Shown: positions 77 through 6,063 of the stretch, piece after piece
How positions within the stretch are numbered: the stretch's first letter is position 1
Layout: the number at the start of each line of letters is the position of its first letter
Source of the DNA: a virus
Virus record (IMG/VR): IMGVR_UViG_3300046516_000889
Span: 1-38,002 of that record
Reading direction: 5' to 3' (one strand)
DNA length: 38,002 nucleotides
Notes under the pieces: generated by a model
What the model was told of the DNA's origin: nothing
Seen by the model: only the letters and a program-made list of their open reading frames with translations
Database searches by the model: none
Program-made: the position numbers and the translations under genes

Positions 77-2692
77 TTAGCCAAATCCAAAACCGTTTTG
101 CGCATGTTTATCATGCCCGTTGCTGGGGCCAATCTCTTCTAGATCCAGGCCGGCCGACGACAACAATGATAGCGGGATCTTGTAGCACGAGCCACGATCG
201 CCACCTACGAGCCGCGCCTTTGCGCGATACCCATCCTGCTGTTTTTCGATCACGCCTGATTCACACCACTGGCGCACAATAGAGTTAGGTGCATAGCCAA
301 GCTGCTCAAGAATTCTCTTGAGCGGATCGATGAACACTCCCAACGATCCGTCTGTGTCAATCCCTTTTGGCAGGCGAGCGAGCCAACCTGTTGCCGGTGG
401 TTTATCAATGCTCGACTGAGACGAACCAAGGATCTGCGACTGTCGAGCGCCGAGATAGTCGGCGAGATCTTCGAGCGCCTTGCGCGGCCTTGAAATTTGG
501 CTGATCTCGCGCGCGAAATATTCGACGCATCGTTGCACGCTTGAAAATTCGTCGATGCCCCATGGAAGATCCAGCGCATCAATCGCCAGCTCTGCAGCAA
601 TGCCGAGCACCGCCATGCACGCGGCCATCCTGCCAACCACATTTTGATCGGGCAGGTCGCTCATTTGCGCGGCATATTCGTCCTGTAGTTCGGCGTGCCT
701 TTGACGCCATTTTGGCCAGTCGGCTTTGTGCTCGAGGATGAACGTCACCCACGCTTCGCCTGCATGGCCGCAGTTTGCGGCCATCTGCGATTTGAGCCGC
801 GCAACTTCCGCTCCTGTCATGCCGTCCGTTGGAGATCCCCAAACACTGAGCACGCGAGCTGCGGCGCCGCCGCCTTGCATTAGATCGGAAAGCTTTTGCT
901 CACCAGTCGTAAGAAGAACCGTTCGCCATTTTGCCGTGGCGCGTGAGCCGGTCTTTGCGCCGCGCATTTTGCCTTGGCCGGTGATGCTGTAGATCGTGCT
1001 TTCTAGGATCGGTCGTTTTCCGAATCGCACTTCCGCCGACTGCGTTTCGTCTATCAGCGTTGGAAGATCCGTCATGGTCGCCATGTAGCGTTCAATGCCG
1101 GTCTGCGTGGCGCTCCAGTTTTGCAATAGAGACGAGTCCTCGCTTTCGCTGTTTTCTCCCCACACACTTGCAGCCAAACGCAGCGCCGTTGTTTTTCCTC
1201 CGCTCGTCTTGCCGGCCCACTCCACTGCAAAATTCGACGCGCCAAGCGGCTTGAGAAGCGGTGCCGCGAGAGACGCATACAATGCGAGCTCGAGCCGCGG
1301 GAATGCGTGTATAGACCGCAGCATGTTCCGCCATTCGCCCATTGTCCCCGACTTTTTGCTGAGACCTTCGACCAGTTGCAATTCGCCATCTCCTGACGCT
1401 GCGAAGTCGACGCGCTTCTCTTCATCGCCGATGAAGTTTTGACCGAGCACGAAACCGCCATCTTTCTGATACCCGCAAGTTTCGCTCACCTGCCGATGAT
1501 CGATTTGATGCTCATTGGTCCGCATGTACGAATCAATCCAGCGCACGAGCTCGCGCCGATTTTCCGATGTGACAGGGAACCCATACGCGCAAAGGATCGG
1601 CATTTTTGATGCGTCAAGACCTTGCTCAGCTGGCACGGCGCGTTTGGCCCATCCAGAGCCACGGCGCGATGGCCACGCAAGCTCTATCTCTTGCGTTCCG
1701 TTACGGTGATGCAGGATCGCCGAAACGATCGGAACGCGATCACACACCGCAACGTGGCGGGCAATTGGGCCGTCTTTCGTTTCTCTGATGTCGACACGAA
1801 ACAACCTGATTGCACCAAGAGGCACCTTTCCGTGTAGCACGTAGTCGCTCGGAAGTTGTGGATCGCCACTGACCGGAAATGCGCCGAATGTCGCGAGCGC
1901 ATCTCGCATTGTAACGTCGGCATCTGCGTTGTGTTGGTCAATCGCCACTCGACGATCGTGTTCTTTGATCGCTGATTCCACGTCGCGCTTGAGCTTTTTC
2001 CGTCGCAACAAATCCAGAATGCCTAGCCACTCGGCGCGTTGATCTCGCGCGGCAAGTAGTCGACCAAACACGCCAGGCAAGAGCGGCGATCGACGATCGT
2101 TGTCTATCAGACGCTCTAGCTCTTCAGCGGTGAGCCTTTCAGGGGTCTCCGGCGGCGCGTCTCTGTCGTCTGGCATCGGCGCGTTGACAGAAGGTTGCCC
2201 ATTGATGCGCTCGAGCCCTTCATTGAGCTCGACCCACTTGCTTGGACTCGGCTTGTGCATCGGCTCGCGCACGGCTCCGAATCCTTTGGCGCGCAGCTCG
2301 CGCGCTGCGACCGAGAAATCACCGCCGCAATTCAGCAAGCCGTAGGCGCTGAACTTGTTGTAGGCGCGCTCGGCATCGAACGGTTGCGCGTTGCTTGAGA
2401 ACACGTAGAGTTTTGATCCGCAGTGGCCAGTCGTCGCGCTGATTCCTCCGTCTTTCTTGCCGGGTCGACGCCAATAGGTCTTGTCGCCGATTGTGCGCAG
2501 CGCCTCCCATCCGTGCGGCTCGAGCACTTCAAACCATGACGTGCGCGTGTCGAAGTCTTCGCCGGGCTTGGCGCCTTCGTTCGGCTTGCTCGGTTTCGGC
2601 GCGTGGTGTTCCTCCTTGGCCGTAATAGCCTTTTCATTGAACGCGCGCGCCGAATTGATAATAAGATCTGTCTGTTCGGCCGTGAGAATCAT
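77..2692 (-). CDS. DUF927-type replicative ATPase/helicase with primase-associated N-terminal part
   Basis: An 871-residue protein. Residues about 50-140 resemble the region that follows Prim-Pol domains in phage primases (RRPG, YVFSSNA and GGDFSVAARELRAKGFG stretches). The centre and C-terminal half look like a DUF927 P-loop ATPase: Walker A GKTSGGKT lies near residue 494-501 and a Walker B-like LIDE about 55 residues later. It likely unwinds DNA at the phage fork with the Prim-Pol encoded just upstream. I start it at the ATG at 2692, which overlaps the Prim-Pol stop as ATGA; an in-frame ATG at 2707 is less likely. The split of primase and helicase into two coupled reading frames suggests a stoichiometric pair. 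The stop codon directly abuts the 76-base inverted copy at the window edge. The DUF927 assignment is from motif memory, without a search. Confidence 0.85.
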   Translation of the reverse strand: MILTAEQTDLIINSARAFNEKAITAKEEHHAPKPSKPNEGAKPGEDFDTRTSWFEVLEPHGWEALRTIGDKTYWRRPGKKDGGISATTGHCGSKLYVFSSNAQPFDAERAYNKFSAYGLLNCGGDFSVAARELRAKGFGAVREPMHKPSPSKWVELNEGLERINGQPSVNAPMPDDRDAPPETPERLTAEELERLIDNDRRSPLLPGVFGRLLAARDQRAEWLGILDLLRRKKLKRDVESAIKEHDRRVAIDQHNADADVTMRDALATFGAFPVSGDPQLPSDYVLHGKVPLGAIRLFRVDIRETKDGPIARHVAVCDRVPIVSAILHHRNGTQEIELAWPSRRGSGWAKRAVPAEQGLDASKMPILCAYGFPVTSENRRELVRWIDSYMRTNEHQIDHRQVSETCGYQKDGGFVLGQNFIGDEEKRVDFAASGDGELQLVEGLSKKSGTMGEWRNMLRSIHAFPRLELALYASLAAPLLKPLGASNFAVEWAGKTSGGKTTALRLAASVWGENSESEDSSLLQNWSATQTGIERYMATMTDLPTLIDETQSAEVRFGKRPILESTIYSITGQGKMRGAKTGSRATAKWRTVLLTTGEQKLSDLMQGGGAAARVLSVWGSPTDGMTGAEVARLKSQMAANCGHAGEAWVTFILEHKADWPKWRQRHAELQDEYAAQMSDLPDQNVVGRMAACMAVLGIAAELAIDALDLPWGIDEFSSVQRCVEYFAREISQISRPRKALEDLADYLGARQSQILGSSQSSIDKPPATGWLARLPKGIDTDGSLGVFIDPLKRILEQLGYAPNSIVRQWCESGVIEKQQDGYRAKARLVGGDRGSCYKIPLSLLSSAGLDLEEIGPSNGHDKHAQNGFGFG

Positions 2693-3192
2693 TGAACACC
2701 AAGCCAACCGCCAGCGATCAATTCGTATCCGGCGGAAGGAGGCGCAACGACGTAGCCCCCTTCTCCTCGAGTCTCGATTATGACATTCGATTTTTTGCCG
2801 TTCTTTTCATATGGCACGCTGGCCGTCGCCAGCTTTTGATTTCTGGCCGGCTGAGCCGATCGCATGTACACGTGATGACCGCCAGGAGTTTTGACCAAAG
2901 GTAAACGCTCAAGCAATCCGGGCGACACACTTTCAACCAATTCCCGCCACGCATCGAAAGACCCAGGGCGATCAAAGTCGATCACCGTGAGTCCTCCACT
3001 TACGGCACCACAAACAATGCCGATCGCAACGTAGTTTTTTGCGAACAACTCGCACACGTCGTCGCGCGTTTGCCGTTTGTCGATCCATTGGCGCCACGTT
3101 TTGATCGCTGGGGCTTTTGAACCATCGGCTCTCACTGGTAGGACCTGCAATCCAGAATCGAAATATTGAAGCGCTGTTTCGAGCATGGTCAT
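2689..3192 (-). CDS. Prim-Pol (bifunctional DNA primase/polymerase, N-terminal domain type)
   Basis: A 167-residue protein matching the archaeo-eukaryotic Prim-Pol catalytic domain. The metal-binding acidic pair is in VIDFDRP, the nucleotide-binding histidine motif is TPGGHHVYM, and a third conserved block reads IIETRGEGGYVVAPPS. It would synthesise primers, and possibly extend them, at phage replication forks. Its length is about that of the catalytic domain alone; in many phages this domain is fused to the helicase, whereas here the helicase part is the next gene. The start ATG at 3192 overlaps the stop of the SF2 helicase (ATGA), and its own stop overlaps the ATG of the ATPase, so three replication genes are translationally coupled. 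Confidence 0.9.
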   Translation of the reverse strand: MTMLETALQYFDSGLQVLPVRADGSKAPAIKTWRQWIDKRQTRDDVCELFAKNYVAIGIVCGAVSGGLTVIDFDRPGSFDAWRELVESVSPGLLERLPLVKTPGGHHVYMRSAQPARNQKLATASVPYEKNGKKSNVIIETRGEGGYVVAPPSAGYELIAGGWLGVQ

Positions 3193-4877
3193 TGTGCGTT
3201 TGTCTTTCTGTAGCGGGCTTTGACGATTAAGCCCTGTGCTTCACGCTTGGTCAGGCCAGGCGGAAGCTCTCTATACATGCGCCTAAGGTAGCCCAGTTGT
3301 GCAGGCGTCGCTGTTTCGGTCGCATGCTTCGCCTTCACTTGCAGCTCGAGGTCAGCCGCCGTGCCCTTGCTGATTCCTTCGGTGACCTTAACTCCGGCCT
3401 TGCGTAAAAATTCGAGCTGCGTTTTCGCTGCCGCGTCGCCGCGCCACGATGCATCGGCCAACGCCTTGTTCACTGCGTTGACGCGTCGAACATAGTCCTC
3501 CGCATAGGCTTGAGCGATGTCCATCGTCACAGGACAATCGGTCAGTGATTCACGCTTGCGGTCTCCGATGCGAATGCCCACGGCATCGACGGTCCATTCT
3601 TCGCCGTTCGGCAACATGCGCACCGTGCCGAACGCGCCAGCGTCGAGCAGCCACGCGCCGCCCTCGGCTGGCACCCAGCGAAGCTTGGAGCGAGGCGCCC
3701 CGCCGACGCCTTCGATCTGCGTAAGTAGGCGCATCTTCCAGTATTGCTCTGGGTCATAGAGAGGATCGATCCCTATCGGCTTCGGACGCTCGGATGGATC
3801 GGGCCGAATCCCGAACAGCACCGCCGCCTGAACGAGCGTGTTGCGCTTCGATGTTCCGACCATGTCTATGACCAGGCAATCGCTCTTGGCCGGATGCAGA
3901 CGCAGCCCGCGGCCAACGCACTGGATCATGAGCGGCTTACTCTGTGTCGGGCGCGCGAGCACGATCGCGTCGACGCTCGGCTCGTCGAAGCCCTCGGTCA
4001 GAACCATGCAATTGACCACGCATCGCAGCTCGCCCGATTGCAGCTTGCGCAAAATGCGGCGGCGCTCATCGCTTGGCGTTTCGCCAGAGAGCGCGGCGAC
4101 GGCATGACCGCGCTCGCGTAAGTTTGCGGCGACCGCTTCGGCTTGAGCGACAGAGACGACGAAGATCAGCGCCTTGCGGGCCAAGCAGTGTTCTTCGTAT
4201 GCCGCGGCGATCTCGCCGACGATCCCGGCCTGAAGCAATGCCAGGTCTAGTTGCTTGGCGCCGTAGTCGCCGCGCGCCGACGTGATGGCATCGAGGTCGA
4301 GCTTGATCGCGCGCTCGATCACGGTGGGCGCAACCAGGTAGCCTTGCGCGATCGCCGTCGTGATCCCAACCTGGAAAACGATTCCTTCAAACACATCGCT
4401 CAGCGCGCCGTTGTCGCTGCGCTCTGGTGTCGCCGTGAGGCCGAGCAACCGCGGGCCTCCGGCGCTCATGCACCCGAGCTCGTCCAACAACGCGCGATAG
4501 CCAGGGCTAAGCGCGTGGTGCGCTTCGTCGACCACAACAAGACCGAAGCCTTGGTCCGCAAGTTGGGCAAGGCGCCGCGGTTGCTGCGCTGACTGAATCG
4601 ACGCGAAGACGACGTCGCGCATGTATTGATTCGATTCGGCTTTGACGATCCCACTCGAGGCCTCGGGCCACACGAGCTTGAGTGCTTGCGCCGGTTGGCT
4701 GATCAGCTCCTCGCGGTGCGCGAGCCACAGCGTGCGCGTCTTCATCGCACGCGCGAGAGCAAGGCCGGTGATCGTTTTGCCCATACCCGTGCTGAGCACG
4801 ATGAGCTGACGCTGCATTGGTGAAGCGATGGACGCTGCGATTGCTAGTTCTTGATACGGACGAAGCGCGATCGGCAT
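3189..4877 (-). CDS. SF2 DEAH-box helicase
   Basis: A 562-residue superfamily 2 helicase. An RPYQ Q-motif-like start is followed by Walker A STGMGKT (29-35), DEAH in VVVDEAHH (117-120), motif III LTATPERSD (about 148-156), and a C-terminal RecA-like lobe with TEGFDEPSVDAIVLARPT and arginine-finger motif VI QCVGRGLR. It is similar in plan to phage helicases that remodel DNA at origins or during recombination. I place the start at the ATG at 4877 because AGGGGAC sits just upstream on the minus strand and the RPYQ motif follows at once; an in-frame ATG at 4925 would add 16 low-complexity residues. It leads the helicase, Prim-Pol and ATPase trio, after a 145-base gap that holds a small hairpin. 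Confidence 0.92.
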   Translation of the reverse strand: MPIALRPYQELAIAASIASPMQRQLIVLSTGMGKTITGLALARAMKTRTLWLAHREELISQPAQALKLVWPEASSGIVKAESNQYMRDVVFASIQSAQQPRRLAQLADQGFGLVVVDEAHHALSPGYRALLDELGCMSAGGPRLLGLTATPERSDNGALSDVFEGIVFQVGITTAIAQGYLVAPTVIERAIKLDLDAITSARGDYGAKQLDLALLQAGIVGEIAAAYEEHCLARKALIFVVSVAQAEAVAANLRERGHAVAALSGETPSDERRRILRKLQSGELRCVVNCMVLTEGFDEPSVDAIVLARPTQSKPLMIQCVGRGLRLHPAKSDCLVIDMVGTSKRNTLVQAAVLFGIRPDPSERPKPIGIDPLYDPEQYWKMRLLTQIEGVGGAPRSKLRWVPAEGGAWLLDAGAFGTVRMLPNGEEWTVDAVGIRIGDRKRESLTDCPVTMDIAQAYAEDYVRRVNAVNKALADASWRGDAAAKTQLEFLRKAGVKVTEGISKGTAADLELQVKAKHATETATPAQLGYLRRMYRELPPGLTKREAQGLIVKARYRKTNAQ

Positions 4878-5000
4878 TGGGTCCCCTGGCGTAGAGAAGC
4901 TCGTGCGGCGAGGAACGCCATCCACGCCGCACGAGCCAAGGACTTCCTATCTACGATGTTGGATTATCGCGCAAGCCTGCCGCAGTCAGAAAGCGACAGG

Positions 5001-5022: not shown

Positions 5023-5663
5023 TTATGGCGCGACGGAGCGCGCGATTGACAAGAGCATGTCTCGGAAGGCGGGCGGCGTGGCTGCGGCGACCTTCTGCTT
5101 GAGCCGTGGTCTGTCGTTCGGCCTGCCGCGTAGGTGGTTGCCGCACCACGAGACGAGCGCCTTGCTCTCGGCGTCGAGCGACGTGCGCCAGTCGAGCGAC
5201 GGGAGCGACGTGGCGCCGTGCGCATAAAGCCACGTCGCTTTCTTCGCCGGGTGTCCGTAGCGTCCCTGCTCGACGTGGGCGACCCAGCCGCCGCAGATCG
5301 TTCGCTGCCATCCGCCGGGGTTCGGCGCCGGCAGCCCGAACGCTGCGAATGCGTCGCTGTAGGCCGGATGCTCTAGCACCCCCCCCCCCATCGACGCACA
5401 GCGTTAAGCGCGGCCTTGAAGCATCCGCCGTCCTCGCCTCGCTTGCAGCTTGCGGTGCGCCGACGCTTGCCTTTGCCGACGACCTTTCCGTGCCAACGCT
5501 TCTCAACCAGGCCGGCGAGGCGACACCAGCGCGCGCACGGCGGATGCGCCACCACGGCGTATGGCCCAGCGTATAGCCGAGCGTCGCGTGCTTCGTCCCA
5601 TAGATCCACATCAGGCAATCCCGCGTAGATGCCGCGCGGGTCGACAAACAACGCAGCAATCAA
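5023..5663 (-). CDS. conserved phage protein disrupted by a frameshift in an 11-G tract
   Basis: Two adjacent frames together encode one protein of about 213 residues. The N-terminal frame, from a TTG at 5663, contains FVDPRG, LPDVDLWDEARDA and AHPPCARW. It runs into the G tract (5379-5389) and stops at once after RRWGGGC. The C-terminal frame resumes with GGGVLEHPAYSDAF, GGW and HVEQGRYGHPAKKATWLY. I recall this arrangement (VVAHPPC..., then RWGGVLEHPA...) as a single phage protein of unknown function. Nine or twelve Gs would restore one frame; eleven do not. The TTG start overlaps the upstream stop as TTGA. It is either a homopolymer sequencing error or a slippage-switched gene. The downstream frame also has an in-frame ATG at the tract, so a 122-residue fragment could be made. 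Confidence 0.8.
5379..5389 (-). repeat. 11-base G homopolymer (C on plus strand) inside a coding region
   Basis: Eleven C on the plus strand form an unbroken G run in the coding strand, located where the two halves of the conserved phage protein change frame. It is long enough for slipped-strand mispairing and also a known weak point for sequencing. Runs of 9 or 12 would fuse the halves as WGGV or WGGGV. Confidence 0.9.
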
Positions 5664-5884
5664 GCGCTTCTCAGAACAGCGAGCGGAAACATTCCACGGT
5701 GCGTGCTGCGCCGACAACCCGGCGCTGGCGGCAATGGCCGACCAGTGCCGCGATCGAAGCGCACGATCGCGCCTTCGATCTCTTCGCGGATGAGACCGAA
5801 TGCAACGATCTCGCCGCGCAGCTCGAGGCACGCGCGCTTGTGGCGTACTGGCACGATTACGCGATCGCCGCGGTGCCAGATCAT
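5660..5884 (-). CDS. small hypothetical protein, possible SH3-like barrel
   Basis: A 74-residue protein. The segment RGDRVIVPVR followed by GEIVAFG and GAIVRFDRGTG has the alternating beta-strand and glycine-turn look of a small SH3-like barrel, a fold often used to bind nucleic acid; this is inference from pattern only. The start ATG at 5884 overlaps the upstream stop (ATGA), and its stop overlaps the TTG of the next gene (TTGA), which fixes both ends. No specific function can be assigned. Confidence 0.65.
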   Translation of the reverse strand: MIWHRGDRVIVPVRHKRACLELRGEIVAFGLIREEIEGAIVRFDRGTGRPLPPAPGCRRSTHRGMFPLAVLRSA

Positions 5885-6063
5885 AGCGCGACATCTCGCG
5901 ACAATTGCAGAACAGCCTGGTCGCGTTCCTGGCGCAATCGAGCGATGACACGCTCGTTCGCCTCAAGCGCGTCCAGGCATTCTCCAACCAGCAAATGCCA
6001 ACTTTGTGTCAGCGCTTTCGACTCGCAAAGTACGCGGATCGCAGCGATGCGAGCAGCGTTCAT
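5881..6063 (-). CDS. small alpha-helical hypothetical protein
   Basis: A 60-residue protein. The second half (LDALEANERVIARLRQERDQ) is strongly helical with a coiled-coil-like heptad pattern. It is coupled by ATGA overlaps to the HTH gene upstream (6063-6060) and to the next small gene (5884-5881). Second in the leftward early operon, so it may act with the HTH regulator or with replication proteins; nothing in the sequence decides this. Confidence 0.65.
   Translation of the reverse strand: MNAARIAAIRVLCESKALTQSWHLLVGECLDALEANERVIARLRQERDQAVLQLSRDVAL

Follow-up and report, generated by a model that had tools for sequence, protein, structure and literature searches.

Does a run of eleven G residues in the middle of a phage gene mark a gene that is switched on and off, a gene that has been lost, or an error of assembly? 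The question was raised by a C11 run on the plus strand at 5379-5389 of the window (the whole stretch of DNA analysed, 38,002 bases), which reads as G11 on the coding minus strand. The longest of the other G or C runs in the window is 5, so the 11-run is an extreme outlier for this DNA and far from chance.

The split gene in the window

The features of the region are as follows.
3189..4925, minus strand: DNA helicase (phrog_16), the intact downstream neighbour, on the same strand as the split gene
5023..5391, minus strand: downstream part of the split gene, in a different frame, with the VLEHP (ENV-like) motif and the C-terminal half; phrog_12600 positions 76-194
5373..5663, minus strand: upstream part as sequenced, with a TTG start, 96 codons and the PPC-like motif VVAHPPCARW; phrog_12600 positions 2-77
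5379..5389, minus strand: G11 homopolymer (C11 on the plus strand) at the W-G-G-V codons of the phrog_12600 family
5660..5884, minus strand: small upstream ORF of 74 aa with no Pfam match; its TGA stop overlaps the TTG start of the phrog_12600 gene (TTGA)

The upstream frame is open over 5373..5987 (minus strand), with TTG 5663 as the likely start, and is terminated by TAG 5375-5373 directly past the G run. From TTG 5663 to 5023 the full gene spans 641 nt, which is not a multiple of three. Membership in phrog_12600 was assigned from significant profile matches of both halves to adjacent stretches of the profile, 2-77 for the upstream frame (E 7.6e-25) and 76-194 of 203 for the downstream frame (E 3.8e-28). 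A long homopolymer thus lies within a coding region at a frame-breaking length, as in a contingency locus. The original prediction had placed a gene-splitting G11 here and had read the two frames as one conserved family with both halves intact. Its coordinates were exact, the frames do differ across the run, and the reading of the halves was borne out by the adjacent phrog_12600 matches and by the near-invariant positions described below. It had also allowed a C-terminal product from an ATG at the tract. ATG 5391-5389 does abut the G run, formed where a codon ending in A overlaps the TGG codon, and it shares the downstream frame only at run length 8 or 11; the ATG itself is real, but no recognisable ribosome-binding site was found for it, and a C-terminal product is no more than a possibility.

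Between the PPC-like region and GEDGG, the window protein carries about 16 extra, mostly basic residues, HGKVVGKGKRRRTAS, at 5455-5500 (minus strand), which the aligned relatives lack. A split of the primase at window 2689-2707, considered as a second frameshift, was rejected as an ordinary ATGA overlap of two genes, and the other window genes that were checked showed no further frameshift. A search for relatives of the adjacent helicase, meant to locate close relatives of the window phage, gave none. Gene-neighbourhood comparison gave no conserved helicase or regulator partner of the phrog_12600 gene.

The phrog_12600 family

Sequence searches of the family in Pfam, NCBIfam and PDB gave no match, and phrog_757 (DNA methyltransferase) was weakly matched by 7 of 19 family members. 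An intact relative, L002, was modelled with AlphaFold (53 sequences; mean pLDDT 93, pTM 0.90). The leading PDB fold matches of this model were the cytosine-5 DNA methyltransferases ZMET2, DNMT1, M.HaeIII and DNMT3, all weak (best E 5e-3, TM 0.3-0.45), and its viral structure matches include annotated cytosine-specific methyltransferases. HPPC and LEHP, both conserved in the family, succeed one another as PPC and ENV do in C5 methyltransferases. The HPPC Cys does not vary across alignment A2 (53 sequences) but is Tyr in L137, and EHP replaces ENV. We regard the phrog_12600 protein as resembling a DNA methyltransferase; it is not a proven one. The G run sits after the PPC-like motif and just before the ENV-like motif (VLEHP), so off products keep the PPC-like part, lose the rest and should be inactive.

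The family was found in no plasmids, and among 385 genomes of the class of L032 it was found in L032 alone, apart from one weak match with stops. Pseudomonas phage Persinger (L377:1264-1920) carries an intact phrog_12600 gene that is unannotated, the annotation covering only a 48-aa fragment, gp40. In Xanthomonas phage fSU1 (L380; 10,956 bases, circular) the family gene lies directly upstream of the replication gene.

Tract length and reading frame in relatives

Protein queries and DNA patterns yielded 196 distinct relatives (duplicates collapsed), which were compared with the family profile in three frames. All sequences compared were consensus assemblies. The site reads W/F/Y-G-G-V-L-E-H-P in the relatives; TGG GGG GGG GTN writes W-G-G-V as G9, and the run is 7 if TTY or TAY precedes. 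A pattern scan of the viral collection (at least 7 Gs, then VLEHP codons) gave 28 stretches, mostly of the phrog_12600 family. Portal-protein matches of the GGVLEHP patterns (L037/L041) were left out of the counts. One tract gene, L045, begins inside the gene, and its upstream half lies outside the frame comparison. A codon-model control of frame state at other G/C runs in all loci was dropped, with many uncertain calls and about one quarter false OFF at 6-runs.

A run of G7 or longer stands at the site in 25 of the 196 relatives, and 7 of the 25 are out of frame there: the window (G11), L010 (G8), L031 (G9, where 8 would be in frame), L035 and L036 (both G7), and L053 and L364 (both G10). Among the 171 relatives without a tract, no breakage was found at this position. 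Counted anywhere in the gene, frameshifts were present in 7/25 tract genes versus 5/171 tract-free ones (p ~1e-4); the latter five lie at ordinary sequence (L020, L084), at C10 runs (L307, L262) and at a G10 run (L317). When the sample was restricted to relatives found through the N-terminal half only, 3 of 6 tract genes were off, and every other gene whose site could be read was in frame. None of the 5 runs with an in-frame length of 7 was off, and those with longer in-frame lengths were off in 7 of 20 cases (p 0.27, small numbers); the lower rate at length 7 fits slippage. By codon arithmetic, a shift of -1 is required in the window and L010, and of +1 in L031, L035, L036, L053 and L364. Tract length in related phages was a check named with the prediction; the off alleles, that of the window included, have lengths 7, 7, 8, 9, 10, 10 and 11, with both wrong frames represented. 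The contig of L031 is named k127, in the style of the short-read assembler MEGAHIT, which speaks for a switch, and L036 has an isolate-style IMG number. Tracts found in two to three contigs each (L012-L014, L038/L049, L047/L052) were G9 every time.

To assess decay of the flanks, each half was fitted to 53 aligned intact genes and scored at the positions conserved in at least 95%. All 49 of 49 such positions are kept in the window, L010, L031 and L053, so that flanks are fully intact in 4/7 off alleles, the window included. L035 has a second frameshift, and L036 has a lower count because it belongs to a divergent subfamily. The window gene thus lacks the decayed flanks that the prediction had named, together with a fixed length of 11, as the sign of a pseudogene. 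Since related genes of unrelated phages are broken at this run with other lengths, it appears to hold an on/off site prone to slippage and not to be dead. Variation of tract length around the in-frame value with intact flanks, a further mark of a contingency locus, was found among distant relatives only, and no near-identical phages differing in tract length were found in the collections examined. The predicted switching by slippage accordingly held as far as the relatives go, with lengths varying around the in-frame value and alleles off in both directions; reversible switching within one population stays a prediction. Around 9014 (minus strand) in L050, an in-frame deletion of ~30 residues fuses HPPCERW to GGVLEHP at a G9 run.

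Most relatives have mixed Gly codons and no tract; the cultured phages examined (Persinger, Jess A, Meltemi and fSU1) are among them, each with an intact gene. The nearest relatives of the tract genes are ~70-75% identical and mostly without a tract; the tract is therefore sporadic, having arisen many times, and is not kept as a conserved switch. This sporadic occurrence and the position of the tract, at mid-gene and not at the 5' end, count against a switch. In the protein-similarity loci, 7 G/C runs of at least 9 fall within 65 kb of the gene, compared with 8 across 618 kb of flanking DNA (p 2e-4, uncorrected for base and amino-acid composition); long G/C runs are ~8 times denser in the phrog_12600 gene than in flanking phage DNA, an excess that rises with run length. 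GGG is a common Gly codon in these genes (~23%). GGG-GGG was used at the tract Gly pair in 7/80 in-frame genes versus 3/195 other Gly pairs of the same genes, ~6 times more commonly (p 0.008). The evidence for selection on the tract is mixed.

Long runs were also seen at other places. The frame of the family gene in L317 is also broken close to its N-terminus, away from the GGV site, by a second G10 run (L317:1264-1273), and C10 runs at Pro-Pro codons shift the family gene out of frame in L262:13447-13456 and L307:551-560. At L159:468-477 a gene with a ParB-like and then a DPPY-type methylase-like part is split at G10, a Pfam match being obtained for the ParB part only. L048 has G9 in two genes, an N6/N4 methylase and phrog_12600 (4830-4838 and 4111-4119), both in frame, and PF01555 was matched on both sides of the in-frame G9 in the methylase. 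The L159 and L048 genes hint that DNA-modification-like phage genes may collect such runs. It is doubtful that environmental phages repeatedly evolve polyG switches in their own DNA-modification genes (the phrog_12600 site, L317, L048 and L159); if they do, modified and unmodified genomes would exist side by side in one phage population, as a hedge against restriction by the host.

Explanations of the run and known systems

On balance we favour a slippage-prone, contingency-like (phase-variable) site, of which the window would carry an OFF allele, in an accessory phage gene that resembles a minimal cytosine-5 DNA methyltransferase. The polymerase would slip, during replication, on the G tract that the W-G-G-V codons make when written TGG GGG GGG GTN. 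Tracts of in-frame length would give the full protein of ~210 aa; other lengths would lead to a stop just before the ENV-like motif, in the window to a dead 96-aa fragment. The tract would in this way switch a DNA-modification-like activity on or off in different progeny. We infer real length variation, reversible in one population and under selection, and an action of the protein on DNA.

The main rival, which we consider unlikely, is a miscount of the long homopolymer in the consensus or assembly; the phage would then carry an in-frame run and the gene would always be on. Every relative is itself an assembly, the off cases gather on the longest runs, which are also misread by sequencing, and the family and other genes are broken at further G/C10 runs (L262, L307, L317, L159), as an error process would give; the second frameshift of L035 points the same way. 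Set against this, three relatives are off at shorter runs, G7 twice and G8 once, which short reads usually get right. The isolate-style numbering of L036, the agreement in length of tracts present in several contigs, and the checked genes in the rest of the window, which have no other frameshift, also argue against error. A consensus error confined to the window contig would still leave room for genuine slippage in the relatives.

Simple loss of function is rather improbable. By this account a recent frameshift has been fixed in a dispensable accessory gene and the run is a mere mutational hot spot, which is consistent with a sporadic tract, a family present in few phages, unproven reversion, the two frameshifts in L035 and the in-frame deletion of L050 that ends at the tract. 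It does not sit well with flanks fully conserved in 4/7 off alleles, nor with the over-representation of long runs in the gene and at the Gly pair, which is unexpected for a neutral hot spot, though the counts are small.

Very improbably, the G11 allele yields full-length protein through frameshifting, programmed or leaky, either by a ribosomal -1 shift on the Gs or by slippage in the transcript: the window needs -1, after which a run made wholly of G pairs perfectly again, and homopolymer slippage rescues frameshifted genes elsewhere, such as at poly(A) in Buchnera (cited in PMC2831843), but RNA downstream of the run shows no more structure than its shuffled versions (z -1.3) and most relatives require no shift. 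The relatives need both -1 and +1 shifts, so there is no conserved frameshifting programme, and programmed -1 frameshifting was rejected on these two grounds, the unremarkable downstream structure and the opposite shifts.

The favoured reading, a slippage-prone site in a methyltransferase-like gene, was compared with known enzymes and switches. With the C5 DNA methyltransferases (the Dcm, M.HaeIII and DNMT1 fold) the phrog_12600 protein would share a PPC-like motif, the ENV-like strand VLEHP and the leading, though weak, fold matches; unlike them, it is ~200 aa long, has EHP for ENV and gave no Pfam or PDB sequence match. No separate target-recognition domain was identified in the phrog_12600 protein. 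For this uncharacterised phage family a testable function is proposed.

Bacteria have phase-variable DNA methyltransferase genes of the mod/hsd type (phasevarions). In these, and putatively in the window, a slippage tract inside a DNA-modification-like gene sets it on or off at random; unlike the bacterial mod/hsd genes, the window gene is phage-borne and its putative enzyme resembles the C5 fold only. Homopolymer slippage as a reversible switch is well established in bacteria (PMC2831843).

PolyG phase variation is also already known in phages: in Campylobacter phages it affects the receptor-binding proteins (Sorensen et al. 2021, Cell Rep 35:109214; as cited in PMC11868660, PMC10579305 and PMC10877375). 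The gene type and the phages described here would be new, and the loci are listed for read-level testing of tract length in public data. If the variation is real, phage polyG phase variation would be extended from Campylobacter phage receptor-binding proteins to a methyltransferase-like gene of unrelated environmental phages. The Campylobacter systems share with the window a G homopolymer lying within a gene of the phage, whose length changes set the on or off frame; there the genes encode receptor-binding proteins and switching was shown experimentally, whereas in the window the gene is methyltransferase-like, the phage is unrelated, and switching is inferred from consensus sequences.
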